Source: Gemmatimonadota bacterium (GTDB taxonomy: Bacteria; Gemmatimonadota; Gemmatimonadetes; Gemmatimonadales; GWC2-71-9). Taken from it: a stretch of 38,262 nt of DNA. This document shows, piece after piece, positions 3,970-36,321 of this stretch. The stretch covers positions 1 to 38,262 of the forward strand of contig JACQHC010000078.1 of the NCBI GenBank assembly GCA_016199245.1, in the 5' to 3' direction. Position 1 is the stretch's first letter. Every line of letters starts with the position of its first letter. The notes below the pieces were generated by a model. It did no database searches. It was not told the DNA's origin and saw only the letters and a list, made by a program, of their open reading frames with translations. Both the position numbers and the translations under genes were made by a program.

Positions 3970-5480
3970 CGCCCCTCCATCTCGCGCAGCCGCTGCATGT
4001 CGCTTTCGATTGTGTGCACGCCGAGCAGCAGGACGAATGCGCCGACGACCGCGACGGTGGGAAGCAAGAGCATTGCGGTCTGGATGCCAAAGCGGTCGGA
4101 CAGGAACCCGATCAGCGGGTACGCGACCGCGTCGCCTGCGATGTGCGTGAAGAACACGTAGGTACCGACCACGGATGCGCCGATGCTGGACGGCACGACG
4201 TCGAAGATGGCGGCGGTCACGGGGCCGTTGTACCACGTGAAGAGAAAAATGGTCCCGAAGAACAATGGCGTGAACGCGTTAAGGTCCCGCGTCGTGAGCA
4301 GCAGGAGACACAGCGGTGCACCGATGATGAAGCCGACCGAGCCGGCGATCAGCCGGCCGGTGGGCCAGCGCTCCAGCAGGCGATCCCCGAGTCGCCCGCC
4401 GAAGACCACCCCGAGTGATGCCCCCAGCAGTCCCCACACGCCCATGAGCCGGCCTGCCATCTGAGGCTCGAGCCCGAGCTCTCGCTGCAGGAAACTCGGT
4501 GACCATCCGACCAACCCGTTCATGGCGAAGGAGATCAGCGCGCCGCCCGCGAACACCCAGACGAGGGTGGGCGTGCGCAGCACAAAGCGGGCCGCATCGA
4601 TCATCTCATCCAGTGTAGTCAAAGCGGTCGAGCGCTGACGGGATTCGGCGCGCGCCGCGAGCATGCGCCGCACCAGGCGGGCGACGGTGCCGGCCGCCCC
4701 GAGCGCGAGCGCGGTGCCGATGATCGCTCCTTCACCCTCGGCACTCACCTGATCGAGCCGATCGAGCACGTAGGCCAGTCCCAGCCCGAGGGCGCCAAGC
4801 GACCAGAGAGGCCACGTGCCCTGGATGAGGTGCCAGATCGTGAGTTCCAGGCGGCGGATGATCTCGAGTAAGGACAGGCGGCGCTCTTCGCGAGTCGGGT
4901 CGCGGAGCTGCGTGGTCAGGATCGCCAGCAACAGGCTCGGGATGGCCACCGCCATGAACGCCGCTCGCCACCCGTAGAGGTGTTCCAGCTCGCCTCCCAG
5001 CCAGATGCCGGCCACGCCACCGAGGGCGAGGCCACCCCAGAAGATCCCCAGAGCCAGCGCCCGGCCGCGCGACGGGAAGAAATCCGCCACGAGGGATTGC
5101 GCCGACGGGGAGTACGCGGCCTCGCCGATACCGACCATGGAGCGACAGAACAGCAGCTGCCAGTAGTGCCTGGTCAACCCGGTGAGCGCCGTGAACGCGC
5201 TCCACACGGCCACGCCTCCGGCAATGACCAGCTTACGTGACCGGAGGTCGCCCAGGATACCGAGCGGCACGGCTGCGACGGACAGCACGATGATGTAGGC
5301 CGAGCCCAGCCACCCCAGCTGGGTGTCGGACAGGGCGAGCTCCTGCTTGATGGGCTCGAACAACACGAAGATGATGTTGCGGTCGATGTAGTTGACGGCG
5401 TTGATGCACGTGAGCAGCGCCAGGGCGTACCACGCGTACGCCCCGGGCGTGCTACCGGTGTGCCCAGCTCGCCCGGTCAC
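3966..5480 (-). CDS. MFS transporter, spinster-like
   Basis: A 504-residue polytopic membrane protein of the major facilitator superfamily. Seen directly: [19 protein letters not shown] in TM1, the loop 2-3 motif [10 protein letters not shown] (a variant of GxLaDrxGrR), and [16 protein letters not shown] before TM5. These resemble the spinster branch often annotated as sphingolipid or organic-anion transporters. The central cytoplasmic part holds two extra hydrophobic stretches (about residues 220-237 and 248-267), so the protein may have 14 rather than 12 segments. The start is a GTG at 5480 that overlaps the upstream stop as GTGA, making it the last gene of a four-gene coupled operon. Its substrate is probably tied to that operon, but nothing in the sequence names it. 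Confidence 0.88.
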
Positions 5481-6610
5481 TCCCCGCGGCCGGCCGCCGC
5501 GGCGCGTTGGTCGCGCGTGCGGCGGGCTTTCTTGTAAGCCCTAACGAGCGCCGCGAGCATCGGTCCGCGCCGGTCATAGAGCCGCTTGAGCGGGCGGGGC
5601 GGGCGGCGGGCCAGAGCGTAGGCCGTGACCAGAGGAAGACCCACGGTACTGTCCACGTAACACACGACAGAGTGAGCCAGTTGGTCGGGATCCACCTTCC
5701 CCCAGCTTACCGCTTCCCCCGGGGTCGCGCCGGATAGCCCGCCCGTGTCGGAGCGGGCGTCGGTGATCTGCAGGAAATAGTCGTGGCCCTTCTCGTCGAT
5801 CCCGAGGACCTCCTGGATCTGGGGCTCGGTTTGGAGCACGAAGTTCTTCGGGCTGCCTCCGCCAATCATCAGAACCGCGCTCCGGCCCCGGCGTTTCCCG
5901 TCCAGCACGATGGCCGCGGTTTCGTTGACGTCGGCCGACACGTCGAACCGCAGCTTGCCGCCGTCGAGCGCCTGTTCGGCGACGTTCATGCCGATGGAGG
6001 AGTCGCCCGGCGACGACGTGTAGATCGGCACGCCGCACTCGTGCGCCACCGCGAGAACCGATCGGTGCTTCAGGCCCAGCGCCCCCTCCCGCTCCCGCAC
6101 GTAGCCGCCCATCAGATAGTGGTACTCGGCGGTGGTCATGTCCCGCTGGAACTCCGGACGCGCCGAGATCTCGCGCATGAAGTGATCCGTGTGGAGCAAG
6201 ACGGTGTAATCGAACAGGATGTCGTAGATCCGGACCACGCCTTCCTTGCGCAGCACCACGTCGTCCACGAAGGGCGAGCCCTGGTGCATCGAAAGCCCAA
6301 GGGCGAAGTGCGCGTCGTGGTACAGGTTGGCCCCCGTGGAAACGATCCAGTCCACGAAGCCCGCTTGCATGAGGGGGATCAGGCAGGACATCCCGACCCC
6401 GGCGGGCGTGAGCGCCCCCGTGAGGCTCATCCCCACCGTGACGTCGGGTTCCAACATGCGCTCCGTGAAGAGCCGCGCCGCCTCCCGCAGCCGCCCGGCG
6501 TTGTAGGCGAGGAACGAGTTATCCATCAACTCCGCCACCGACTCCCGTCCCGTGATGGCGATCGGGTTGATCCGCGACCCGCGCAGGAACCGGCTTGGTT
6601 TCTTGCTCAT
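5477..6610 (-). CDS. Deoxyhypusine synthase-like / homospermidine synthase-like protein
   Basis: A 377-residue member of the deoxyhypusine synthase family (Pfam DS). In eukaryotes the enzyme uses NAD and spermidine to modify eIF5A. Bacteria lack eIF5A, and tested bacterial relatives make free polyamines such as homospermidine, so a polyamine role is likely but inferred. Family signatures seen: [22 protein letters not shown] (NAD-binding), [30 protein letters not shown] and [13 protein letters not shown]. The last contains Lys305, aligned with the catalytic lysine that forms the enzyme-substrate imine in human DHS, so the protein should be active. The start ATG at 6610 is fixed by an ATGA overlap with the upstream LOG-family stop; a longer open frame reaching 6754 lies inside that gene and is not needed. 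Confidence 0.93.
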
Positions 6611-7356
6611 TTCTTGCCCCGCTCCTCGCGCATCTGGCGACCGACGCTCTCCACCACGACGCGCACTGCCTGTTCCGGATCGTCGGTCACGTGAAACAAA
6701 CGCGCATCGTCCGGACTGATCATCCGCTCGGCGGCGACGGTGTTGGTGAGCCACTGCACGAGTCCCCGCCAGTACTCCCTGCCCATGAGCACGACGGGGA
6801 AATCCTTGATCCGGTCCGTCTGGATCAACGTCAGCGCCTCAAACAGCTCGTCCAGCGTGCCGTAGCCGCCCGGAAAGAACAGGAAACCGCGTGAGTACTT
6901 GATGAACATGGTCTTGCGGACGAAGAAATACCGGAAATCAATCTCCCGGGTGACGTAGGGGTTCGAGTGTTGCTCGTGCGGCAACTCGATGTTGAGGCCG
7001 ATCGAAAGCGTGCTGGCCTCGGTCGCGCCGCGGTTGGCCGCCTCCATGATACCCGGCCCGCCGCCCGTGATGACGGCGAAATTCGCCTCGCCGAACCGCC
7101 GCGCGGTTTCCACCGCCTTCGCGTACCACGGATGATCGGGGGTCATCCGTGCCGAGCCGAAAATGGCGACGGCGGTATCGACGTCCGACAGGCTGTCGAA
7201 CCCCTCGACGAACTCGCCCAGGATTCGGAGGGCGCGCCAGGGATCGGTCCGCGTAAACGCCTGGCGCTCGCCGGCGGGTCGCGGCGCGAACAGCACTTCA
7301 TCGGCAGTCCGCCGCGGGCCCACCGACGGAGGGGGTTCTTCAGGTGGTGAGGACAT
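6607..7356 (-). CDS. LOG family protein (TIGR00730-type Rossmann fold, lysine-decarboxylase-like)
   Basis: A protein of about 249 residues with the [13 protein letters not shown] motif (PGGxGTxxE) that defines the LOG family, plus [14 protein letters not shown] and the nucleotide-binding start VAIFGSARM. Characterised members are nucleoside 5'-monophosphate phosphoribohydrolases that release free bases, in plants and some bacteria cytokinins. The old name 'lysine decarboxylase' is not supported biochemically. I prefer the ATG at 7356, which leaves a modest overlap with the upstream aminotransferase stop at 7340; ATGs at 7377 and 7413 are in frame but lie deeper inside that gene. The stop overlaps the DHS-like start as ATGA. 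Function inside this operon is unknown. It could act on a nucleotide by-product or be a housekeeping passenger. Confidence 0.9.
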
Positions 7357-23354: not shown

Positions 23355-23358
<4 letters not shown>

Positions 23359-24041
23359 GCCGCGTTTTCCGAACCAGGGAGCGGTGGGGAGCTCGGTCGT
23401 TCTCCGAAGCTCACCGCGTACTCGCATGCGTTGCATCCGTTCACGATGTGCCGTTCGCGGGAGACCTGAGCGCCGAGTACCTGCTCGAGGAACCGCAGCT
23501 CCTCATGGCATACCTCGGGGAACTTCTCGGCCACCGCATGAACTGCGCAGTTATGTTCGGCGATACGGAGGCCGTTGGGCTCGGGCGACCATTCGGCCAT
23601 GAAGCCCCGCTGCGAGAGCAACCCAGCCACCGCGTCCACTCGCTGCTCCGGAGTTGCCTGGTGCAGCTGGAGCTTCAACCGATCGGCCTCAGCTTCGAAG
23701 TACTCGGCGAAGAACCGGCGTACGGCTTCGCGGCCGCCGCTGCGCTCCACGAATGCCAAGGCGGCCTGGAGCGTCTCCTCGTAGCGCTTGGGGAACAGCG
23801 CCTCGCCTGCCTGACTCAACTTGTAGGTGAACGTGGGCGCGCCGAGACCACGTTGCTCTCGTTCGTGGGCCACGAGGTGTTCGACCTCGAGTTCCTTGAG
23901 GTGGCGCCGCACCGCGGTAGGGGTCACGCCGTGTCGCCGTGCCAGGTCGTTGGCCGAAAGCGGCTGGTTGCGCTTCAACGCGACCAGAATCTGCCGTCGG
24001 AGGCCTTTGTGGGCCGCGAGTGAGGGGGAGAGCGGTTCCAT
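23355..24041 (-). CDS. sufR: SufR-like Fe-S-sensing transcriptional regulator
   Basis: A 228-residue regulator with an N-terminal winged helix-turn-helix (about residues 17-55, [20 protein letters not shown]) and a C-terminal region with four cysteines: Cys165 (EHNCAVH), Cys178 (EVCHE), Cys203 and Cys206 (NGCNACEY). This matches SufR, which represses suf genes while holding a [4Fe-4S] cluster and releases DNA when the cluster is lost. The start ATG at 24041 is chosen over 24083 because the family N-terminus begins there. As first gene of the operon it is in position for autoregulation. The name is supported by cysteines plus context; binding specificity is inferred. Confidence 0.88.
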
Positions 24042-24054
24042 GATCAGGGGCGGG

Positions 24055-24083
24055 AATCTAGTCAGCCGCGTACAAAATCGCAA
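24055..24083 (-). promoter_or_regulatory. Candidate sigma-70-type promoter of the suf operon
   Basis: On the minus strand TTGCGA (24083-24078) is followed by 17 bases and TAGATT (24060-24055). Transcription would begin about 24048, only some seven bases before the sufR ATG, so the message would be nearly leaderless; this fits the lack of a Shine-Dalgarno before sufR. The imperfect inverted repeat ACAAAA (24072-24077) / TTTTGT (24097-24102) straddles the -35 box and could be an operator. Confidence 0.5.
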
Positions 24084-24269: not shown

Positions 24270-24836
24270 ATGGCTGTACGACGGATTCGACTGCTAGGCG
24301 ACCCCGTCCTGCGGGCTCGCTGCGATCCTGTGACAAGTCCTCAGTCGCCGGCTGTGAGGATCGTGGCCGACGACCTGAGGGACACCTTGCGTGACTGGCA
24401 GAAGCGCTCGGGCGCCGGCCGGGGAATCGCAGCGCCGCAGATTGGTGCGCCGATCAGATTGGTGCACATCGCGCTAGCGGACCGCCGCTGGACGCTGGTG
24501 AACCCCGAAATCACGGACGTGGGCGACCAGGATTTCCTCGTGTGGGACGATTGCTTCTCTTTTCCGGATCTCCTCGTACGCGTGCAGCGTGCCTACCACG
24601 TAACCGTACGGTACCAGGACCTGACAGGTGCGACGCTGATCCTGGATGCGGAAGGAGCGCTCGCGGAGCTGCTGCAGCACGAGATTGATCACCTGGACGG
24701 CGTGCTGGCGGTGGATCGGGCAACCGGTGTGGATCCGTTCTGCTTGCGTGAGGAATGGGAGAAGCACTGGGCGGCCCAGGGACGGTACAGCGCGCCCAGT
24801 GTGAGGGAGGAACCAAGGGGCGCGCACGTCTATTAG
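24270..24836 (+). CDS. def: Peptide deformylase (variant motif II)
   Basis: A 188-residue peptide deformylase, which removes the formyl group from the first methionine of new proteins. Motif I is GRGIAAPQIG (Gln57), and motif III is HEIDHLDG with metal ligands His137 and His141 and catalytic Glu138. Motif II, normally EGCLS, reads DDCFS here, keeping the metal-ligand Cys95 but replacing the glycine before it with Asp. The active-site residues are therefore complete and activity is plausible, but the substitution and the absence of a neighbouring fmt gene suggest a secondary or specialised copy. A -10-like TAAATT at 24252 lies close to the ATG, without a clear -35. Its stop is nested with the convergent transporter stop (TTAG). 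Confidence 0.9.
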   Translation: MAVRRIRLLGDPVLRARCDPVTSPQSPAVRIVADDLRDTLRDWQKRSGAGRGIAAPQIGAPIRLVHIALADRRWTLVNPEITDVGDQDFLVWDDCFSFPDLLVRVQRAYHVTVRYQDLTGATLILDAEGALAELLQHEIDHLDGVLAVDRATGVDPFCLREEWEKHWAAQGRYSAPSVREEPRGAHVY

Positions 24837-25484: not shown

Positions 25485-26678
25485 TCAGGCGAGCGCTTCG
25501 AGGAACTCCGCAATCACGCGGCTGGTTTGTACCGGTTGCTCGAGGGGCGCAAGGTGGCCCGCTTCGGGGATCACGGTGAGCTGCGCTTCTGGGATGGCAT
25601 CGGCCAGCGCACGGGACGTCGCGGCGGGGATCAGGCGATCCTCGCGGCCTGCGATCACGAGCGTGGGGACGTCGATGCTCCCGAGGAGCGCCGTGGAATC
25701 GGGCCGATCGCGCATCGCCTCGAGCGCCCCGATGATCCCTGTGGTCGGATTGGCGGCGATCATGGCTTTGAGATGCTCGACCACCTGAGGTTGAGCGGTG
25801 ACAGACCAGGGTGTGAGCAGCTGCGGAACGAGCGCGTCCGCCAGGGCCGCCGGGCCGTCACGTTGCACGACGCCAATCATCTCGTCTCTCCGCCGCCGAC
25901 CCTCCTCCGTATCGGCCTCGGCGCGCGTGTTCACCAATACCAGCGCGCCGACCCGTGTCTTGTGTCGCCGAAGCAGTTCGAACGCGATGTAGCCTCCCAT
26001 AGACAGCCCGCACACCACGGCCTGATCCACGTGTAGTACGTCGAGCAGCGCGGCGAGGTCGTCCGCATACTCGGCCATGGTGTATTTGCCTGGCGCGTCG
26101 GACAAGCCCATGCCCCGCAGGTCCGGTGCGATGCGCTTCCAGCCCGTGAGGGTGGCCATCACCTGGCGCCACACGGTGCGGTCCAGAGGGAAACCATGGA
26201 CGAAGAGGATGGGCCTTCCGTCCCCCTGGAGGTCCAACGCGACGGCGAGCCCCCGGACCGCGAGATGCCTCGTTTCACTGGCGCGCACGGAAGGCCGGCG
26301 GCCGAATGCCTGTACGAACTCCGGTGGAAGCGGCGCGGGTTCAGCCCGGGAATTGAGGCAATCGAACGCCAACTCCGCTTCGGCGACGATGGCGCCGTCC
26401 TCCCCGCGTGCGACGTGCCGCACCGTGAAGCTCGTCCGGCCCATCGCGACAAGCGACGTCTCGACGCGCAGTCGATCGCCTGCGCCCGCGTGCGACTGGA
26501 ACTCCAAGGTTGTCTTGCGCACCGCGGGGAACGAATCGGACCTCGCCTGCCCAGACGCTGCGCCGCCGAGCTGCTCCCACCGGGCTCGATCCAGTAGGCG
26601 GAGCAGAGCGGCCGCCGTGAGCCGTCCGCCCGCGTCGCAATCGTCGGGGTAGATCAGCAGTTCCACCGGAGTCACCAC
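25485..26678 (-). CDS. Fusion protein: hotdog acyl-CoA thioesterase domain plus alpha/beta hydrolase
   Basis: A 397-residue protein with two domains. Residues 1-125 resemble the 4HBT/YbgC-FadM hotdog thioesterases: LIYPDDCDAGGRLTAAALLR carries the strand-turn-helix with Asp15 at the usual catalytic position, and ARWEQLGG follows. Residues 140-397 are an alpha/beta hydrolase: oxyanion-hole HGFPLD, nucleophile Ser226 in GLSMGG, Asp347 in GREDRLIP and His375 in GHLAPLE. The second half resembles 3-oxoadipate enol-lactonase and related esterases. Both sets of catalytic residues look intact. The GTG at 26678 is used; another GTG follows directly. No gene is cotranscribed with it, so the substrate is open. 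Confidence 0.88.
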   Translation of the reverse strand: MVTPVELLIYPDDCDAGGRLTAAALLRLLDRARWEQLGGAASGQARSDSFPAVRKTTLEFQSHAGAGDRLRVETSLVAMGRTSFTVRHVARGEDGAIVAEAELAFDCLNSRAEPAPLPPEFVQAFGRRPSVRASETRHLAVRGLAVALDLQGDGRPILFVHGFPLDRTVWRQVMATLTGWKRIAPDLRGMGLSDAPGKYTMAEYADDLAALLDVLHVDQAVVCGLSMGGYIAFELLRRHKTRVGALVLVNTRAEADTEEGRRRRDEMIGVVQRDGPAALADALVPQLLTPWSVTAQPQVVEHLKAMIAANPTTGIIGALEAMRDRPDSTALLGSIDVPTLVIAGREDRLIPAATSRALADAIPEAQLTVIPEAGHLAPLEQPVQTSRVIAEFLEALA

Positions 26679-26958: not shown

Positions 26959-28020
26959 ATGACCCATAGCCGCGTTGCCGCAGCACTCCTTGCCATGTCC
27001 GTGGCAGCACCGCTGGGCGCGGGAGCCGTGGCTCAGGAGGACACTCAGACCTCCCGTCTTGAGCGGTTGCTCCAGAGTCAGATGGAGAGCATGCGGCATC
27101 AAATGGATGTGTTGAATCGCCGGCTTGACGACGTCATGTTCTTCCAGCGGTTCTCCGGTATCGCGGACGTCGATGTCGTGAGCTTCACGGGACCACCGCG
27201 ACGGCGCGAGCCGAACCCGACAGCGCAGGGTGCCGGGAATCCGCTCCGCATACCGGCCTACGTGTTCATTCCCAAGCGCCTGGACCGATCGCGGAAGCAA
27301 CCGTTGATCGTCCTGCCGCACGACGGGGTGCACAGCAATTTCAACACGGCCTATGCCCACCTGCTGGGCGAGCTGCTCGACCAGGGGTACACCGTCGTGG
27401 CGCCCGAGTACCGCGGTAGCACGGGCTATGGGCGGGGGTTCTACGAGAGCATCGATTATGGCGGCCTTGAGATCGAGGACACGTACGCCGCGCGGAGCTT
27501 CGCGCTGGAGACGTACGACTTCCTGGACCCCGCGCGGGTAGGCATCGTGGGGTGGAGCCACGGTGGGTTGCACGTGCTGATGAACATCTTCGAGCACCCG
27601 GATGCCTACGCGGTGGCGTACGCCGGCGTGCCCGTGAGCGACCTCATCGCGCGCATGGGCTACAAGACCCAGGGCTATCGGGACCTGTTTTCGGCGGACT
27701 ATCACATCGGGAAAGACGCGTTCGAGGACGTGGAGGAGTACCGCCGGCGCTCACCTTCCTGGAACGTCCACAAGTACCGCGGTACGCCGTTGCTGATTCA
27801 CACCAACACGAACGATGAGGACGTCAACGTGCTGGAGGTGGAGCGGCTGATTCAGGCATTGCAGGCTGCGGGCAAGACGGGATTCGAGTACAAGGTCTAT
27901 CAGGACGCTCCGGGTGGTCACTTGTTCAACCGGCTTGACACACGGCTTGCGCGGGAGTCGCGAGTGGAGATTTGGCGGTTCATCGGACAGCGGCTGCGGC
28001 CGGAGAGGCCGGTCCGATGA
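26959..28020 (+). CDS. Secreted prolyl-oligopeptidase-like (S9-type) alpha/beta hydrolase
   Basis: A 353-residue protein with an N-terminal signal peptide (MTHSRVAAALLAMSVAAPLG, cleavage after about Ala25) and a short coiled-coil segment (residues 33-60). The catalytic domain has PEYRGSTGYGRGFYESIDYG, nucleophile Ser200 in GWSHGG, an acid in TNTNDEDVN (Asp286 or Asp288) and His321 in GGHLFNR. The beta-propeller that gates full S9 peptidases is absent, so it may act as a broad esterase or peptidase. The ATG is preceded by AAGGAGAG. The 280 bases upstream hold a TTGACA near the start but no -10 at proper spacing, so the promoter is not identified. The stop overlaps the next start as ATGA. Confidence 0.9.
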   Translation: MTHSRVAAALLAMSVAAPLGAGAVAQEDTQTSRLERLLQSQMESMRHQMDVLNRRLDDVMFFQRFSGIADVDVVSFTGPPRRREPNPTAQGAGNPLRIPAYVFIPKRLDRSRKQPLIVLPHDGVHSNFNTAYAHLLGELLDQGYTVVAPEYRGSTGYGRGFYESIDYGGLEIEDTYAARSFALETYDFLDPARVGIVGWSHGGLHVLMNIFEHPDAYAVAYAGVPVSDLIARMGYKTQGYRDLFSADYHIGKDAFEDVEEYRRRSPSWNVHKYRGTPLLIHTNTNDEDVNVLEVERLIQALQAAGKTGFEYKVYQDAPGGHLFNRLDTRLARESRVEIWRFIGQRLRPERPVR

Positions 28021-29690
28021 TGCGCGCCCGCCACGCCACCGCCCTGCACAGCGGCATAGGCGGCATCCGCGGGATTAGCCGCGTTCTGCTCGTGTCTGGT
28101 CTTAGGCTGTCCATGCCGCTCATCCCGCTCCTGCCGCTCCCCCAAGCAGCGGTTGCGCAGACCTCCTACGACCTGATCATCCGCAACGGGCGCGTCCTCG
28201 ACGGCACGGGCAATCCCTGGTTCACGGCTGACATCGCCGTGCGGGGTGATCGCATCGCGGCAGTCGGGAACCTGAGCGGTGCGCGAGCCGCGCGGGTGAT
28301 TGACGCAACGGGGCTCTACGTCGCGCCGGGCTTCATCGACGTGCATTCGCACTCCGGTCCCGCGCTCGCCACGCCCGAGCTGAGTGGCGCGGAGCAATTG
28401 CTGGCACAGGGCATCACCACGGTCTTCGTCAACCCGGACGGCGGTGGGCCTGTGGACCTCGCAGGGCAGAAGGCTGCGCTGCTGAAGAACGGGCTGGGCG
28501 TGAACGTGGCGCAACTTGCCCCTCACGGCTCCGTGCGCGGAGCCGTGCTGGGGATGCAGGATCGCGCGCCTGACCGTACCGAACTGGACCGGATGCGGCA
28601 GCTGGTGCGGTCCGGGATGGAGGCGGGCGCGTTCGGCCTGTCTTCCGGACCGTTCTACGCGCCGGGGAGCTTCTCCAGGACCGAGGAGCTGGTGGAGCTG
28701 GCCAGGGTCGCCGCCGAGTTCGGCGGCGCCTACACCAGTCACATCCGGGACGAATCCGACTACACGATCGGCGTCGTGGCGGCAGTGGACGAAGTCATCC
28801 GCATCGCTCGGGAAGCGAGACTCCCAGGCGTCGTGACGCACATCAAGGCCCTGGGGCCAAGGGTATGGGGCTATTCCCTTGCGCTGGTTTACCGGATCGA
28901 CCGGGCGCGCTCGGAGGGTGTGGAAGTCTACGCGGATCAATATCCGTATGAGGCTTCTGCGACGAGCCTGACGGCGGCCCTCGTGCCTCGGTGGGCCGAG
29001 GTGGGCGGGGACACGGCGCTCGAGCGGCGCCTGCGCACGCCGGCCGAGCGGGCTCGGATCCGCGGCGAGATGCTGGAGAACCTGGATCGTCGTGGCGGCG
29101 CTGCGCGGCTCCAGTTCCGCCGGCATCGAGCGGACCCTTCGATTGAAGGCCGGGCCCTTGCCGACGTGGCGCGCGACCGCGGGAAGGAGCCGGTTGATGC
29201 AGCGCTGGACCTGATCGCGGCCGGCGGTGTCGGGGTCGTATCGTTCAACATGAATGAGGCCGATATCGAGACGCTCATGCGGCAACCGTGGACCATGACC
29301 GCGTCCGACGGCGACCTGGTCGCGTTCGGTGACGGCGTCCCGCACCCTCGAGGAAACGGGACATTCCCTCGCAAGATCCGCCGTTATGTTCTGGACAAGC
29401 CCGTCGTGGATCTGGCGTTCGCGATTCGCAGCATGACAGCCTTGCCCGCGTCTGTGTTCCGGATGGCCGACCGCGGCATGCTGCGGCCTGGTGCGGCGGC
29501 CGACGTCGTCGTGCTTGACTTGCAGCGTATTCGGGACGCGGCCACGTACGACCGGCCGCACCAGCTCGCCGAAGGGATGGTGTATGTGCTGGTAAACGGC
29601 GGCCTGGCGGTCGATCAGGGGCGCGCCAACGGGGCAAAGCACGGGCGCGTACTGAATAGACAGGCGATGACAGGCGATGACAGGCGATGA
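28017..29690 (+). CDS. Secreted N-acyl-D-amino-acid deacylase (D-aminoacylase, amidohydrolase superfamily)
   Basis: A 557-residue protein with an N-terminal hydrophobic segment (about 21-48) that looks like a signal peptide after an unusually long basic tail. The core YDLIIRNGRVLDGTGNPW and GFIDVHSHSG (His110, His112 metal ligands) mark the D-aminoacylase branch. Later blocks include AYTSHIRDES, VTHIKALG, MTASDGDLVAFG and the C-terminal GMVYVLVNGGLAVDQGRANG. The reaction is release of free D-amino acids from N-acyl-D-amino acids. ATG 28017 overlaps the upstream stop as ATGA. The gene ends inside a tandem 10-base repeat, so its last residues depend on repeat number. With the S9-like hydrolase it suggests scavenging of modified peptides. 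Confidence 0.92.
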   Translation: MMRARHATALHSGIGGIRGISRVLLVSGLRLSMPLIPLLPLPQAAVAQTSYDLIIRNGRVLDGTGNPWFTADIAVRGDRIAAVGNLSGARAARVIDATGLYVAPGFIDVHSHSGPALATPELSGAEQLLAQGITTVFVNPDGGGPVDLAGQKAALLKNGLGVNVAQLAPHGSVRGAVLGMQDRAPDRTELDRMRQLVRSGMEAGAFGLSSGPFYAPGSFSRTEELVELARVAAEFGGAYTSHIRDESDYTIGVVAAVDEVIRIAREARLPGVVTHIKALGPRVWGYSLALVYRIDRARSEGVEVYADQYPYEASATSLTAALVPRWAEVGGDTALERRLRTPAERARIRGEMLENLDRRGGAARLQFRRHRADPSIEGRALADVARDRGKEPVDAALDLIAAGGVGVVSFNMNEADIETLMRQPWTMTASDGDLVAFGDGVPHPRGNGTFPRKIRRYVLDKPVVDLAFAIRSMTALPASVFRMADRGMLRPGAAADVVVLDLQRIRDAATYDRPHQLAEGMVYVLVNGGLAVDQGRANGAKHGRVLNRQAMTGDDRR

Positions 29691-29700
29691 CAGGCGACGG
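29661..29700 (+). repeat. Tandem 10-bp repeat spanning a gene junction
   Basis: CAGGCGATGA occurs three times in a row (29661-29690) and a fourth, degenerate copy (CAGGCGACGG) follows. Each copy contains overlapping ATG and TGA. Because the period is 10, successive copies place the stop and the start in different frames. The amidohydrolase stop falls in the third copy, and an ATG in the second copy (29677) is in frame with the next gene. Such arrays can change length by slippage. Confidence 0.9.
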
Positions 29701-29727
29701 CCGTCACGCAGCGAGGGAAGGCGAAGA

Positions 29728-32028
29728 GTGACGACGAAGGGTGACGGGCCAGGCGTGCGCCGTAGTTGCGAGCCCGGGAAGGGATGCGTATTGCGATCCC
29801 TACCGGCCGGCTTGGTTCTGGCGGCCATTGTGACGGCGGTGCCCCCATCCGGGCTGGGCGCTCAGGCCCTCGACCCGACCCGCCCGCCGGACAGCGACGC
29901 GCGCCCGCCGAACCCGGAAGCCATACCACGACCTACGACCACCGCGGTGCGCGCGGTGGGGCGGATTGCCGTGGATGGCCAGCTCGATGAGGCAGCGTGG
30001 AGCGCGGCTGAGCTCCTCTCCGGATTCCTCCAGTCCCAGCCGCGGCCCGGAATGCCGGCGTCCGAGCGTACGGTGGTCCGCGTGCTGTACGACGACGATT
30101 ACATCTACGTCGGCGCGATTTGCTATGACACCGATCCCAGCAAGATGTTTTCTCCCGGGTTCGACCAGGACTTCGACACCCACAACAGCGACGTGTTCGG
30201 CGTTTCGTTCGATCCGTACCTCGACCGCAAGAACGCGTTTATGTTCGCGACCAATCCGTCCGGCGCGCTGTTCGACGCCCAGGCGTTCGACAACAGCCGG
30301 CTGATCAACCGGGCGTGGGAAGGTGTGGTGCACGTCAGGACCGCTGCACACGACTCGGGTTGGACGGCTGAGTTCGCCATTCCCCTTACGACGCTGCGGT
30401 TCAAGGGCTCGGAAGGCGAGCAGTCGTGGGGCATCAACTTCTTGCGACGTGTGCGACGCCGGAACGAGGAGTCCTACTGGGCGCCGATGCATCGGTATCA
30501 CCGAGTCCACACCATGTCGCTCGCCGGGACCATTCAAGGACTCACGGGTCTGAAACAGGGCCGGAATCTCTCGCTGAAGCCGTTCGCGCTCGCCTCGAGG
30601 GGGTGGGGATCGCTGCGGCCGGTGGAGCAGCATGATCTGGCGGGGGATGGCGGCGTGGACCTGAAATGGGGCGTCACGTCGCGCATGACCCTGGACCTCA
30701 CATACCGGACGGATTTCTCGCAGGTCGAGGTGGACGAAGAACAGGTGAACCTGACGCGGTTCTCGCTATTCTTTCCGGAGAAGCGCGACTTCTTCATGGA
30801 GAACGCGGGGGTGTTCGCGTTCGGCGACGTGTCCCTGCAGAACTACCGCCTCGGGTCCTCGCCGCGCGACTTCAGCCTGTTCTATTCGCGCCGCATCGGC
30901 CTGTTGCCCAACGGGCAGCCCGCCCCCATGATCGGGGGCGGACGGGTGACTGGCACGGCTGGTGGGCTGGAGATCGGGTTGCTCGACATGCAGACGGAAG
31001 CGGACTCCGGCGCGCCGGGGGAGAACTTCGCCCTTGCCCGGGTCAAGAAGAACCTCGGTTCCGCGCAGGTCGGAGCGGTCTTCATCAATCGGGAGATCAC
31101 GAGCGCCGCGAGCACGGGGTTCAACCGGAGCTACGGTGCGGACCTGTCGCTGCGGTTGTTCGACCACTTGTTCGTCAACACGTATGCCGCGGCCACCGAC
31201 GAGGGAACCGGAGCGGGTGACAACACCATCGGCAACGTGCTGCTCGCCTGGCGCGACCGCGTGCTGGACATCTCCGGGTTCGTCAAGCGTGTGGGGGACG
31301 GGTTCGATCCCGGGGTCGGGTTCATTCGGCGTAACGGCGTGCGACAGGCGTACGCAACGCTCGGTGCTCACCCGCAGCCGCGCTTCGCATCGCTCCAGGA
31401 GCTGAATCCATTCATTGAAGGCAACTTCGTCGAAGATCGCGACGGCGTGCTCGATACGCGCGAGCTCTCGGCCGGGTTGGAAGCGGAGTTCCTCAGTGGT
31501 GCGCAGGCGAATATCGGGGCGACGCAGACGTACGAGCGACTCACGGTCCCGTTCCGGGTTTCGGCTACGGCCACGGTGCAACCCGGCGAGTACGAGTACC
31601 GCGAGGCCAGCGGCGGGTTCCAGTCGGACCAGTCGCGGCCGTTCTCGTTGGGCGCGCGCGGCAGCTACGGCAGCTTCTACGACGGCACCAAGCGGTCCGG
31701 GCGGGCGAACCTACGCTGGCTACCCAATCATCATTTCTCAGTCGACGCGTCCGCCGAGCGCAACAATGTCCGTCTGCCTGCTACGGCGTTCAATGCCGAC
31801 GTGTTCCGGGCCAGGTTCCGCTACGCGCACTCGACCCGCGTCTTTGCCAGTGCGCTGGTGCAGTACAACGCCGCGGGGGACGAGCTGTCCGTGAATGCGC
31901 GGCTCAACTACATCCACGCGCCGCTATCGGATTTCTTCCTCGTCTTCACCGAGCGCCGCAACGTGGAGACCGGGCAGCTGCTCGACCGGTTGATCACGGC
32001 GAAGGTAACGAGGCTGCTGGCGTTCTAA
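29728..32028 (+). CDS. DUF5916 outer-membrane protein with N-terminal CBM9-like domain
   Basis: A 766-residue protein from GTG 29728, chosen because GGGAAGG stands just upstream; an in-frame ATG at 29677 would add 17 residues. A signal peptide covers about residues 18-45, ending LGAQA. A carbohydrate-binding family 9-like region follows (GRIAVDGQLDEAAWSAA, VRVLYDDDYIYVGAICYD, HNSDVFGVSFDPYLD). The C-terminal half is rich in alternating beta-strands as in an outer-membrane barrel, with FFPEKRDFFMENAGVFAFG, a DUF5916 landmark. The last residue is Phe, the usual barrel-assembly signal. The function of DUF5916 proteins is unknown; they are often near secreted peptidases. The stop is nested with the convergent gene stop. 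Confidence 0.9.
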   Translation: MTTKGDGPGVRRSCEPGKGCVLRSLPAGLVLAAIVTAVPPSGLGAQALDPTRPPDSDARPPNPEAIPRPTTTAVRAVGRIAVDGQLDEAAWSAAELLSGFLQSQPRPGMPASERTVVRVLYDDDYIYVGAICYDTDPSKMFSPGFDQDFDTHNSDVFGVSFDPYLDRKNAFMFATNPSGALFDAQAFDNSRLINRAWEGVVHVRTAAHDSGWTAEFAIPLTTLRFKGSEGEQSWGINFLRRVRRRNEESYWAPMHRYHRVHTMSLAGTIQGLTGLKQGRNLSLKPFALASRGWGSLRPVEQHDLAGDGGVDLKWGVTSRMTLDLTYRTDFSQVEVDEEQVNLTRFSLFFPEKRDFFMENAGVFAFGDVSLQNYRLGSSPRDFSLFYSRRIGLLPNGQPAPMIGGGRVTGTAGGLEIGLLDMQTEADSGAPGENFALARVKKNLGSAQVGAVFINREITSAASTGFNRSYGADLSLRLFDHLFVNTYAAATDEGTGAGDNTIGNVLLAWRDRVLDISGFVKRVGDGFDPGVGFIRRNGVRQAYATLGAHPQPRFASLQELNPFIEGNFVEDRDGVLDTRELSAGLEAEFLSGAQANIGATQTYERLTVPFRVSATATVQPGEYEYREASGGFQSDQSRPFSLGARGSYGSFYDGTKRSGRANLRWLPNHHFSVDASAERNNVRLPATAFNADVFRARFRYAHSTRVFASALVQYNAAGDELSVNARLNYIHAPLSDFFLVFTERRNVETGQLLDRLITAKVTRLLAF

Positions 32029-35000
32029 TCCCGGCCTCCGCGCCGTCCAGCCATCCGCTCCAAGACGGCGATAGCCTCGTTGAGCCCCGCCTCCAGTTCG
32101 GCCTTCCGCCGCTTCTGAGTCTCCGTGGGTGGATAGAGGCTGCCCGATCGCACGCCGCCGCCGTTCATGTCTGAGGCGAGCCCAGCCAGGCCTCGTAGCG
32201 TCGCCGCCAGACGACCGCGCGCCGCGGCGGCAGTGTCGCCAGCTGGGACCGCCGGCTGTTGACCGAAACCGCCCTGTACGCGGACGCCGAGTCGCTGAGC
32301 GGTCTCGAAGCCGCGGCGTTGCAGCGCGGCCACCCCTAGGAGGAAGGCTTGTCGCTCGCGGTACTGGGCATCCGTGATGGGCATTTGCGGGTCGCCCCTC
32401 ACGAGCACCGTCCCACGGGCGCTTACGCCGCCGGCCTCAAGGACCACCGTGTAGGCGCCCGGCGATACAAACGGCCCCCTGGGTCCCACGGGCTGCGCGA
32501 GCGCGGGCAGGGCCTGCGTTGGTGCTTCAGCGGCCTCGCCGCCACCCCCGCCACCGAAGGAGGGAGGCGGCTCGTGCCGCAGATCCCAATTCACGCGGTG
32601 AATCACACCGGGTTCGCCTGAGGCCTCCAGTCGCCGCAGGATCTGGCCGGACGCGTCCTGCACGGTGATCGTCGCCCGGTCGGCCCGTTGCGAGAGGTGA
32701 TAGCCAATCATGGCGCCAAACTGGGGGTTTTCTCCCGCGTAGGCCGCCTGCGACCGGTACGACTGATCCTTCCAGTAATGGAAGATCGTGGCGGGACGGA
32801 TGGCGAACAGATGCGCGGGATGAGCCGCAACCTGCGGCGACCACTCGGCCAACGGCGCCAGGTCGTCCAGGATCCAGATGCTCCGCCCGTGCGTGCCGAG
32901 GACCAGATCGTTGTCACGCGGGTGAATCTCGATGTCGTCGTACGCCGTGGTGGGCAGGTTCGGCATGAGCCGCACCCACGCGGCGCCACCGTCGTTCGAG
33001 GCGAAGAGGGCGTGCTCCGTGCCCAGGAAGAGCAGCCGGGAGTTGGTGTGATGTTCGGCGATGGCGTTGACGGACCCGGCGGGAAGACCGTTCACCCGAG
33101 GCGTCCACGTGCGGCCGAAGTCCGCCGTGTGGAAGACGTATGGCGCGAAGTCCCCGTCCCGGTGGCCGTCGAACGCCGCATACGCCGCGCCGGGAGCCGT
33201 GCGCGAGGCGATGACACGGCTCACGAACGCCCCGTTCGGCGCGCCGCGAATGTTGCGCGAGACCTCCGTCCAGGTTCGTGCTCCGTCTCGCGACACCTGC
33301 ACGTTCCCGTCGTCGGTGCCCACCCACAGAATCACGGCGTCCAGCGGCGACTCGGCGATCGTGGAAATCGCGCCGAACGACGATTCACCGTCGTAGCGCG
33401 ACAGCGTGATCTCGGCGCCCCGCACGCCCATCAGCACCAACGTGTCCCGATCGATCCGCCGCGTGAGATCGTCCGTGCGCTCCCAGCTCAGTCCCCGGTC
33501 GCGCGAGATGAACAGGCGGTTCCCGCCAGCGTACACGACGCTCGGGTTGTGGCGTGAAACGAGCGTGGGCGAGTTCCACTCCCAGCGGTAGTCCGGCTCG
33601 CCCGCCGGCGGCGCCGGGGCGATGTCCAGGATGTCGCCCGTCTCGGCGTCCACGCGCGTGAACCCGCCGTCGTTCGAGTTGCTGTACACGTAGCGATGGC
33701 TCGTCGGGTCGATCTGATGGTACATGCCATCACCGAACCCGATCTGTCGCCAGTCGTCGTTGATGATCCCTTCCCAGTGCCGCGTGGCGCTGGGCCCCAG
33801 CCAGGAATGGTTATCCTGGAGCCCGCCGTACACGAAGTACGGCTCCCGCATGTCGAGGCCGATGTCGTAGAACTGCGCGATGGGGAGGTTGTTGATTTTG
33901 GTGTAGGTGGCCCCGCGGTCCCAGGTCTCGTACAGGCCGCCGTCCCCGCCCAGCAGGAAATGCTTGGTGTTGTTCGGATCGATCCACAACGCGTGGTGGT
34001 CCGCGTGCACGCCCACGTCGTACGTCGGTGCGGTGGGCAGTTCCTTGAAGTTGATACCCCCGTCCTCGCTCACTGACGACTGCGTGCCAAGGACGTACAC
34101 GCGGTTCTCGTCGCGCGGATCGATGAAGATCTCGCTGTAGTACATGGGCCGCGGATTGAGGTTGCTCACTTTGCGCCAGGACTCGCCACCGTCCGCGCTG
34201 CGGTAGGTGCCGCCCTCGCCGCGATGCTCGACCGTGGCGTTGAGCACCATCCGATTGGTGGCTGACATGGCGAGCCCGATCCGCCCGATATCACCCCGCG
34301 GAAGGCCGGCCGTGATCCGGCGCCACGTCCGCCCGCCGTCCGTCGTCTTGTGGATCCCACTCCCCGGCCCGCCGCCGTTGAAGCCCCAGGCGCGCCGCAG
34401 GCGCTGATACGAGGCCGCGATGAGCGTGTTGGGGTCCGCTGGATCCATCACCAGGTCCACGACACCCGTGAGGGTGTCGACGTAGAGCACCTTGACCCAG
34501 GTACGGCCGCCGTCCGTCGTCCTGAAGACGCCGCGTTCGGGAGTCGGTTTCCACAGGTTGCCCAGGGCGGCGACGTAGGCGATGTCGGGATTGGTCGGAT
34601 GCACGAGCACGCGGCCGATGTGCCGGGTCGCATCCAGTCCGAAGTGCGTCCAGGTCGCTCCCGCGTCGGTGGAGCGATAGACGCCATTGCCCCAGGACGT
34701 ACTCTGGCGGTTATTCTGCTCGCCTGTCCCGGCCCAGATCACATTGGGATCGGAAGGCGCGATCGCCACGTCGCCGAATGTGCTGACGGGCTGGTGGTCG
34801 AAGATCGACGTCCACGTGGTCCCGTTGTTCACGGTCTTCCACAACCCGCCGGACGCCGTCGCCACGTAGATGGTGGCGGGCTCGTGCGGCAGCGCTTCCA
34901 CGTCATGAATGCGTCCTCCGGTCACGGCGGGGCCGATGGAGCGGAATCTCAGCTCTCGCACGAGCGTCGGGGAAAGCCCACCGTTCTGCGCTGACGCGGT

Positions 35001-35060
35001 TGCGGGAAGAATCATCAGGAACGCGGCGAACAGCGCTCCGTTTCTCAACGTCCACGGCAT
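32025..35060 (-). CDS. Secreted sortilin/VPS10-like BNR-repeat (multi-propeller) protein
   Basis: A 1011-residue protein with a signal peptide (MPWTLRNGALFAAFLMILPA, cleaved near Ala24). At least eight Asp-box motifs (S/T-x-D-x-G-x-T-W) are visible, including RSTDAGATW, RTTDGGRTW, KTTDGGRTW, RSADGGESW, ISRDRGLSW, VSRDGARTW and TADFGRTW, which form beta-propeller blades. The last quarter is a non-propeller region with a glycine stretch after PSF and a charged helical tail. Relatives are annotated as glycosyl hydrolases or VPS10-domain proteins, but no catalytic residues are identified and enzymatic activity is unproven. A weak ribosome-binding site (GGAG) lies nine bases before the ATG. Confidence 0.92.
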   Translation of the reverse strand: MPWTLRNGALFAAFLMILPATASAQNGGLSPTLVRELRFRSIGPAVTGGRIHDVEALPHEPATIYVATASGGLWKTVNNGTTWTSIFDHQPVSTFGDVAIAPSDPNVIWAGTGEQNNRQSTSWGNGVYRSTDAGATWTHFGLDATRHIGRVLVHPTNPDIAYVAALGNLWKPTPERGVFRTTDGGRTWVKVLYVDTLTGVVDLVMDPADPNTLIAASYQRLRRAWGFNGGGPGSGIHKTTDGGRTWRRITAGLPRGDIGRIGLAMSATNRMVLNATVEHRGEGGTYRSADGGESWRKVSNLNPRPMYYSEIFIDPRDENRVYVLGTQSSVSEDGGINFKELPTAPTYDVGVHADHHALWIDPNNTKHFLLGGDGGLYETWDRGATYTKINNLPIAQFYDIGLDMREPYFVYGGLQDNHSWLGPSATRHWEGIINDDWRQIGFGDGMYHQIDPTSHRYVYSNSNDGGFTRVDAETGDILDIAPAPPAGEPDYRWEWNSPTLVSRHNPSVVYAGGNRLFISRDRGLSWERTDDLTRRIDRDTLVLMGVRGAEITLSRYDGESSFGAISTIAESPLDAVILWVGTDDGNVQVSRDGARTWTEVSRNIRGAPNGAFVSRVIASRTAPGAAYAAFDGHRDGDFAPYVFHTADFGRTWTPRVNGLPAGSVNAIAEHHTNSRLLFLGTEHALFASNDGGAAWVRLMPNLPTTAYDDIEIHPRDNDLVLGTHGRSIWILDDLAPLAEWSPQVAAHPAHLFAIRPATIFHYWKDQSYRSQAAYAGENPQFGAMIGYHLSQRADRATITVQDASGQILRRLEASGEPGVIHRVNWDLRHEPPPSFGGGGGGEAAEAPTQALPALAQPVGPRGPFVSPGAYTVVLEAGGVSARGTVLVRGDPQMPITDAQYRERQAFLLGVAALQRRGFETAQRLGVRVQGGFGQQPAVPAGDTAAAARGRLAATLRGLAGLASDMNGGGVRSGSLYPPTETQKRRKAELEAGLNEAIAVLERMAGRRGGRD

Positions 35061-35126: not shown

Positions 35127-35144
35127 AGGAGTGGACTCCTTTTT
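35127..35144 (+). other. Short perfect hairpin with T run at the RNase D start
   Basis: AGGAGT-GG-ACTCCT followed by TTTT forms a perfect inverted repeat of six bases with a two-base spacer (in practice a four-base loop). It looks like a very small intrinsic terminator but stands at the beginning of the gene, and it covers the AGGAGG that would serve the GTG at 35131. It may reduce ribosome access or be chance. Confidence 0.35.
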
Positions 35145-36321
35145 CCGAAGCCTGGTAGCGAAGTTACGCCCGACCCTGATGCCCGCTCACCCACCGCCTC
35201 CCATCATCGGCGACGCGGCCGCGTTGGCCCAAGCCGTGTCACGGCTCACCACGCGCGGCCGTATTGCCATGGACACGGAAGCCGCGTCCTTCCACCGTTA
35301 CACGGATCGGGTCTACCTGGTACAACTGAGCTCGGACGACGAGACGGTGCTGGTGGACCCCCTGCAGTTGCGAGACCTCGGGCCCATTGGCGCCGTGCTG
35401 GCGGACGAGCGCGTCGAGGTCGTGTTCCACGACGCGGATTACGATCTGCGAGTCCTGGACCGCGATTTTGGGTTCCACGCGCGCCGCGTGTTCGACACCA
35501 GAATCGCCGCACACCTGCTCGGCGAGCCCGGCGTGGGGTTATCCGCGCTGCTGGAGAAGTTCGTCGGCGTCCAGCTGGACAAGAAGCTCCAGCGCGCGGA
35601 CTGGTCCCGGAGGCCGCTGCCGCCGGACATGGTGGCCTACGCCGCGGCGGACACGATGTATCTGCTGGCGTTGCGCGATCAGCTCGAGCGTTTGATGGAG
35701 CAGGCCGGGCGGCTCGGGTGGGCGCGCGAGGAATTCGCCCGGCTCGAGACAATCCGCTGGACGCCGCCCGAAAAGGACGATCTCTATCTTCGCTTGTCGG
35801 GCGCCAAGGCGCTCTCGCCGCGCGCGAAAGTCATCCTCAAGGTCCTGTGCGAGTGGCGTGAAGACGTCGCCCGATCGCTCGACCGCCCGCCGTTTCGCGT
35901 GGCTCCGAGCGAAGCACTCGTAGCCGTGGCCCGGGAAGCCCCCGCCACGCCAAGCGCGCTGCACCGCGTAGCAGGGCTGCCGCAGTCAATCGGGAGGCGT
36001 CACGAGGAAGGGTTACTGGGGGCGGTGCGCCGCGGACTCCGTGAGGAGATTCGTCGAACGGTCCGGCCGCGGCCGGCGTCGCCGCGACCGGATGCCGAGA
36101 CTGAGATCCGGTTGGAGCGACTCAAGAGCTTTCGCAACCACCGAGCGGCCGCGCTCGGCTTGGAACCAGGAGTGCTCTGCCCCAATGGCACCCTCCTCGC
36201 GATCGCGCGCACGGCGCCGCGCACGCCTGCGGAGCTCGCGAACGTTGCCGAGCTCCGGGCCTGGCAACGGCAGGCGTTGGGCGAATCGGAATTGGTGGCC
36301 GCAGCCCGGTGCGGGGCGTGA
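35131..36321 (+). CDS. rnd: Ribonuclease D (DEDD exonuclease with HRDC domain)
   Basis: A protein of up to 396 residues. The exonuclease domain has Asp48 and Glu50 in IAMDTEAASFHRY, FHDADYDLRVLDRDFGF with the second metal aspartate, ALLEKFVGVQLDKKLQRADW, and YAAADTMYLLALRDQL with the final Tyr/Asp pair. Two HRDC-like helical regions follow (about 225-300 and 325-390), used for RNA binding. RNase D trims 3' ends of tRNA and other stable RNAs. The start is uncertain: GTG 35131 has AGGAGG only one base away and inside a hairpin, while ATG 35179 gives the typical short family N-terminus but has no ribosome-binding site. Confidence 0.92.
   Translation: MDSFFRSLVAKLRPTLMPAHPPPPIIGDAAALAQAVSRLTTRGRIAMDTEAASFHRYTDRVYLVQLSSDDETVLVDPLQLRDLGPIGAVLADERVEVVFHDADYDLRVLDRDFGFHARRVFDTRIAAHLLGEPGVGLSALLEKFVGVQLDKKLQRADWSRRPLPPDMVAYAAADTMYLLALRDQLERLMEQAGRLGWAREEFARLETIRWTPPEKDDLYLRLSGAKALSPRAKVILKVLCEWREDVARSLDRPPFRVAPSEALVAVAREAPATPSALHRVAGLPQSIGRRHEEGLLGAVRRGLREEIRRTVRPRPASPRPDAETEIRLERLKSFRNHRAAALGLEPGVLCPNGTLLAIARTAPRTPAELANVAELRAWQRQALGESELVAAARCGA

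Follow-up and report, generated by a model that had tools for sequence, protein, structure and literature searches.

The gene described here joins members of two common enzyme families, a hotdog thioesterase and an alpha/beta hydrolase; the fusion is genuine and conserved, and it was born from a pair of operon genes. We studied it in a stretch of 38,262 nucleotides from a Gemmatimonadota contig (hereafter the window), where it encodes a single protein of 397 residues. Our preferred reading, to which we give a probability of roughly 60%, is that the protein couples an active esterase to a thioesterase domain which, although catalytic in most relatives, has only a residual or structural role in the window. 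Judged from its sequence, the copy in the window would be a derived version with a weakened hotdog. The features to which the text refers are as follows:

25485..26678, minus strand: fusion gene, 397 aa; GTG start, no stop inside the open reading frame, coordinates including the stop codon
26304..26648, minus strand: N-terminal hotdog domain 4HBT_2 (Pfam), residues 11-125; Asp15 kept
26214..26303, minus strand: inter-domain stretch, residues 126-155 (AlphaFold model)
25536..26213, minus strand: C-terminal alpha/beta hydrolase domain Abhydrolase_1 (Pfam), residues 156-381; Ser226, Asp347 and His375
24270..24836, plus strand: peptide deformylase, convergent; many relatives also have it downstream of their fusion gene
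35131..36321, plus strand: RNase D-like exonuclease carrying an HRDC domain; in relatives, the conserved divergent gene upstream of the fusion

Domain content and predicted structure

The original prediction, a hotdog domain fused to an alpha/beta hydrolase, is borne out: one open reading frame holds both Pfam domains above cut-off, and both folds are present in AlphaFold models. The hotdog half matches the profile of the YbgC-like single-hotdog enzymes (4HBT_2, residues 11-125, 40.5 bits against a cut-off of 25.5) as well as 4HBT (residues 22-97, 30.5 against 20.6), and the hydrolase half matches Abhydrolase_1 (residues 156-381, 113.6 against 25.8). Against the narrower NCBIfam models, the hotdog half scored 42.3 with the YbgC equivalog TIGR02799 (cut-off 141.35), and the best score of the hydrolase half, 173.5 with PcaD (TIGR02427), was also below its cut-off of 255.85. 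Four further 4HBT matches are found in the source assembly (2.58 Mb, 67% complete).

The AlphaFold model of the whole window protein, built with seven aligned rows, had a mean pLDDT of 85; the hydrolase was mostly above 90 and the hotdog blocks mostly between 66 and 83, with one loop at 46. Residues 126-135 fell below 50, and from about residue 136 onward the chain lies within the modelled hydrolase fold. This part of the model (136-397) superimposes on the Thermogutta terrifontis esterase TtEst (4uhe) with a Z of 42.2 and an rmsd of 1.2 over 262 residues at 39% identity. As the VIA comparison of the whole-protein model gave hydrolase matches only, the hotdog was modelled separately (AlphaFold, three rows; mean pLDDT 78), and its best fold match was YbgC, 1s5u (Foldseek TM 0.83, E 3e-9).

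The same two proteins are the nearest solved relatives by sequence. Among solved structures, the hotdog family is closest to YbgC, a TE9 single-hotdog acyl-CoA thioesterase (1s5u, E 2.7e-18), whose catalytic Asp is aligned, but the hotdog of the fusion falls short of the YbgC equivalog and is joined to a hydrolase. TtEst (4uhc-4uhh) is the best match of the hydrolase half (E 3e-58), with the triad in place, but it is a chain of 274-282 residues in the PDB and has no hotdog; its activity is described, in excerpts of PMC4655241, as directed to short-chain (C1-3) esters. In excerpts of PMC4861933, the hydrolase homologue AF-Est2 binds CoA yet showed no CoA thioesterase activity, so the hydrolase half of the fusion need not act on thioesters. 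PcaD, the 3-oxoadipate enol-lactonase, belongs to the same hydrolase superfamily, and PcaCD/PcaDC provide a precedent for bifunctional fusions of such a hydrolase, although the partner there is a carboxymuconolactone decarboxylase rather than a hotdog. Membership of PcaD or of PcaCD/PcaDC was rejected on the scores below cut-off.

Distribution of the fusion

Among 60 relatives, 24 had a full-length match in a single open frame. Of 395 genomes drawn from the phylum, at least 48 carry the full-length fusion, every one of them in family f1 or f3 (f1, f2 and f3 are codes for families within Gemmatimonadota; f2, which we infer to be the family of cultured Gemmatimonas, is the sister family with unfused genes). 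Two further fusions in this draw are interrupted by contig ends, and in genome G009 the two halves sit at two contig ends. Asp15, Ser226, Asp347 and His375 are invariant among the 25 fused proteins of alignment A1.

Outside the phylum, at E <= 1e-45, the fusion was not seen among 398 genomes from the G400 phylum, 31 of which had a match, or among 301 from the G401 phylum, 109 of which had one, at a threshold that a more diverged fusion could escape; these searches stem from loci L038 (K189A clade bacterium) and L044 (Chloroflexi bacterium). Each of two plasmid searches gave 2 of 72,556 records with a place covering at least 80%; H11 and H14 are the pair from one search, and the annotated CDS of H14 is the hydrolase alone, beginning downstream of the match start.

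It had also been remarked that no characterized protein of this layout was known, and in our searches of the open-access PMC literature we indeed found no description of the fused layout, nor of a bacterial single chain with the thioesterase-esterase activity pair. The only relevant paper from the layout searches was PMC516016 (Dillon and Bateman, 2004), excerpts of which describe LpxC-FabZ, HAD-hotdog and dehydrogenase-hotdog Rosetta fusions. As in the present case, these join a hotdog to a neighbouring operon gene and their parts occur separately elsewhere, but an alpha/beta hydrolase is not among the partners described in those excerpts.

An unfused gene pair in a conserved chromosomal slot

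In f2, the hotdog and the hydrolase are separate, adjacent genes on the same strand, hotdog first, at 13 loci, with 47-233 bases between the profile matches. In one of these (L093), the hydrolase starts at an ATG in the frame of the hotdog, six codons past the hotdog TGA. The window gene is a Rosetta-stone fusion derived from two genes of an operon, and a functional link between the two halves is supported by the unfused adjacent pair in the sister family. A hotdog-only profile (A2), run on the same 395-genome draw and set against the full-length search, gave a hotdog match near 1e-30 or better in 32 f2 genomes, 11 of them outside the fetched loci.

Fused, split, hydrolase-only and hotdog-only loci share one slot, in the order divergent RNase D-like gene, optional AI-2E-type permease, optional PLP-dependent enzyme, hotdog, hydrolase, optional PEMT/ICMT methyltransferase and convergent ferredoxin. 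The PLP gene is directly upstream in 11 of the 13 split loci, all 13 of which have the methyltransferase downstream; at the fused loci, the gene directly upstream is that for RNase D in 26/36 and the PLP gene in 7/36. Nine hotdog-only loci were fetched, eight with the slot neighbours. One of the nine, L125:6311-6673 (f1), shows the reverse loss clearly: a fusion-type hotdog stands alone in the conserved slot and the hydrolase half is gone. At six loci (L058, L059, L069, L073, L079 and L084), the heuristic neighbourhood gene caller failed to report the fusion or the hydrolase gene, and the loci were therefore re-scored by profile searches on all open reading frames; a weak, opposite-strand hydrolase match at L119 was left out, and the neighbour 'c27' was discarded as a likely spurious reading frame because it overlaps the ferredoxin gene.

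In the window, an insertion has left the RNase D neighbour about 8.5 kb away from the fusion. Three of the insertion gene clusters also occur in L047 at the same place, so the insertion seems to have been inherited. Its genes (window 26959-35060) encode an S9-type peptidase, an amidohydrolase, a DUF5916 protein and a Sortilin/BNR protein. Elsewhere in the window, a SufR-like regulator (23355-24083, minus strand; 118.8, below the NCBIfam cut-off of 178.8) adjoins SUF-operon-like genes, including one which, from its translation, we take to encode SufB, and a deoxyhypusine synthase family protein (5477-6754, minus strand; Pfam DS, 230 bits) is encoded in this bacterial genome. The neighbours of the fusion are a mixed set without a single pathway theme and gave no pathway assignment; no tol-pal genes were recognized among those examined, and a defence role was set aside, there being no PADLOC match.

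Evolutionary history

When 77 hydrolase domains were placed in a tree (L087-L092 being left out as duplicates), the f1 and f3 rows formed one group with support of 100/99, except for the long-branched L085. This group holds all the fused rows and 12 hydrolase-only rows, and the split rows all fall in the other group. Within the 49-row group, the hotdog must have been gained or lost eight times, and a clade of fused rows free of hydrolase-only rows is rejected (p-AU 1.5e-48). The simplest account is one fusion followed by repeated loss of the hotdog; that fusion recurred at this site is a less simple alternative. The adjacent, co-directional genes that fused would have encoded a YbgC-like single-hotdog acyl-thioesterase and a TtEst/PcaD-like alpha/beta serine carboxylesterase, and this would most simply have happened once, in an ancestor common to the two related Gemmatimonadota families, with inheritance at a fixed chromosomal place thereafter.

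Active sites and motif decay in the hotdog

The expectation that both domains retain their catalytic residues is correct for the hydrolase, whose Ser226-Asp347-His375 triad and GxSxGG elbow are kept in 77/77 homologues, but only in part for the hotdog of the window. Its Asp15 is kept, as in all 59 hotdog rows. Most of these rows add a His at D+4 and an Asn at D+6, which are present in 13/13 split rows, 9/9 hotdog-only rows, one contig-broken row and 29/36 fused rows. In the window, His19 is replaced by Arg and Asn21 by Thr, D+7 is Ala, and the second catalytic position is absent.

In Shewanella YbgC, a Tyr, the essential Asp15 (aligned with Asp15 of the fusion) and a His at D+7 are described as crucial in excerpts of PMC5479800, and plant ALTs have an Asn in place of that His, according to excerpts of PMC9806908. 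Where YbgC has its Tyr, Asp and His, the window protein carries Pro, Asp and Ala; unlike the Tyr of YbgC, the residue at D-4 is Pro in all 59 hotdog rows, that of the window included. Where the HxN pair would be, the YbgC sequence in the alignment shows Val and Tyr, although it has its own His at D+7.

The seven motif-less fused rows occupy three separate places in the tree: the window with L047; L068; and L065, L136, L137 and L141. Their hotdogs have evolved faster. On a fixed tree of the 36 fused rows, the terminal-branch hotdog/hydrolase ratio had a median of 2.11 in the seven motif-less rows versus 0.74 in the 29 intact rows (Mann-Whitney p 4.6e-6, the rows not being independent), and this test weighs less than its p value would imply because the seven rows amount to three independent lineages. 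The ratio of the window (3.40) was the highest of the 36, and the intact L055 also reached 2.30. Pairwise omega of the hotdog was nonetheless below 1 (0.10-0.27 in motif-less pairs, dS being near-saturated in most pairs), and the window/L047 pair had a value of 0.27, again with near-saturated dS. Together, an omega below 1 and a raised branch ratio indicate that constraint on the hotdog of the window is relaxed and still present. The hotdog was the better conserved half in several intact pairs (dN ratio 0.30-0.41).

Discussion

The predicted substrate of the hydrolase half is a small carboxylic ester or a lactone, cleaved through the acyl-enzyme mechanism typical of a Ser-His-Asp triad. The hotdog of most relatives is probably an acyl-thioester hydrolase that uses Asp15 and the His/Asn pair. 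In the window, the loss of the second catalytic position makes it most likely that the hotdog is an oligomerizing or ligand-binding remnant, with thioesterase activity weak or nil and the esterase doing the work. Against the remnant reading, Asp alone might suffice for catalysis, since other hotdog thioesterases lack the HxN pair, and the low omega of the window/L047 pair would also fit a real hotdog activity.

An unlikely though serious alternative is that two independent housekeeping activities were joined for co-expression and equal stoichiometry only, both being active, in the window as elsewhere. The mixed neighbourhood (PLP enzyme, AI-2E-type permease, methyltransferase, ferredoxin and RNase D) and the universal retention of Asp15 are what one would expect of such a protein, but decay of the hotdog in three fused lineages suggests that the thioesterase is dispensable at least there.

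A further reading seems doubtful to us: that the intact members are thioesterase-esterases in which the acyl product passes from the hotdog to the serine hydrolase, the lineage of the window being one of three in which the domain is decaying to a structural module while still fused. Slightly less probable again is a two-step enzyme whose hotdog would release the acyl chain of a CoA or ACP thioester and whose hydrolase would then turn over the product (a lactone, an ester or a beta-keto acid). MKS1 has an alpha/beta-hydrolase fold and is a decarboxylase; its nucleophile is changed, whereas the Ser of the fusion family is invariant. In tomato methylketone synthesis, excerpts of PMC12794305 have the hotdog thioesterase MKS2 and then MKS1 acting consecutively, a single-hotdog thioesterase and its partner resembling the two halves of the fusion, although they are separate plant proteins. 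MKS2/MKS1 shows how the fusion could work and is a model, not evidence for the fusion itself. That the halves are fused or operon-adjacent, and that both active sites are kept in most fused relatives, speaks for consecutive action; however, either half is often alone in the same slot, a frequency of loss that argues against an obligate two-step pathway, and the hotdog of the window lacks conserved active-site residues.

Hotdog proteins form dimers and tetramers, and the motif decays here while the domain stays under purifying selection. Both points would suit a hotdog that is a non-catalytic scaffold, for oligomerization or ligand binding, across the whole fused family, but this is improbable given the joint presence of Asp, His and Asn in the 29 intact fused rows and the stronger conservation of the hotdog than of the hydrolase in several intact pairs. 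Finally, a sequencing or assembly artefact is ruled out, since the genomes of at least 48 independent species have the two domains joined in frame in the same way. Separate genes in relatives, which had been named in advance as a sign of a false join, do exist, but in the sister family, where they are the unfused counterpart and do not point to an assembly error.

Biochemically, the fusion joins two ordinary enzyme families, and our preferred reading remains that of an esterase carrying a thioesterase domain whose catalytic role has lapsed or dwindled in the window. What the family offers is an experiment replicated by nature, in which a gene pair fused and one partner was then lost or decayed; a single slot within one bacterial order shows the fused, split, hydrolase-only and hotdog-only states. 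These four states make it testable what the fused hotdog gives the esterase, and whether fusion of two enzymes implies consecutive catalysis.
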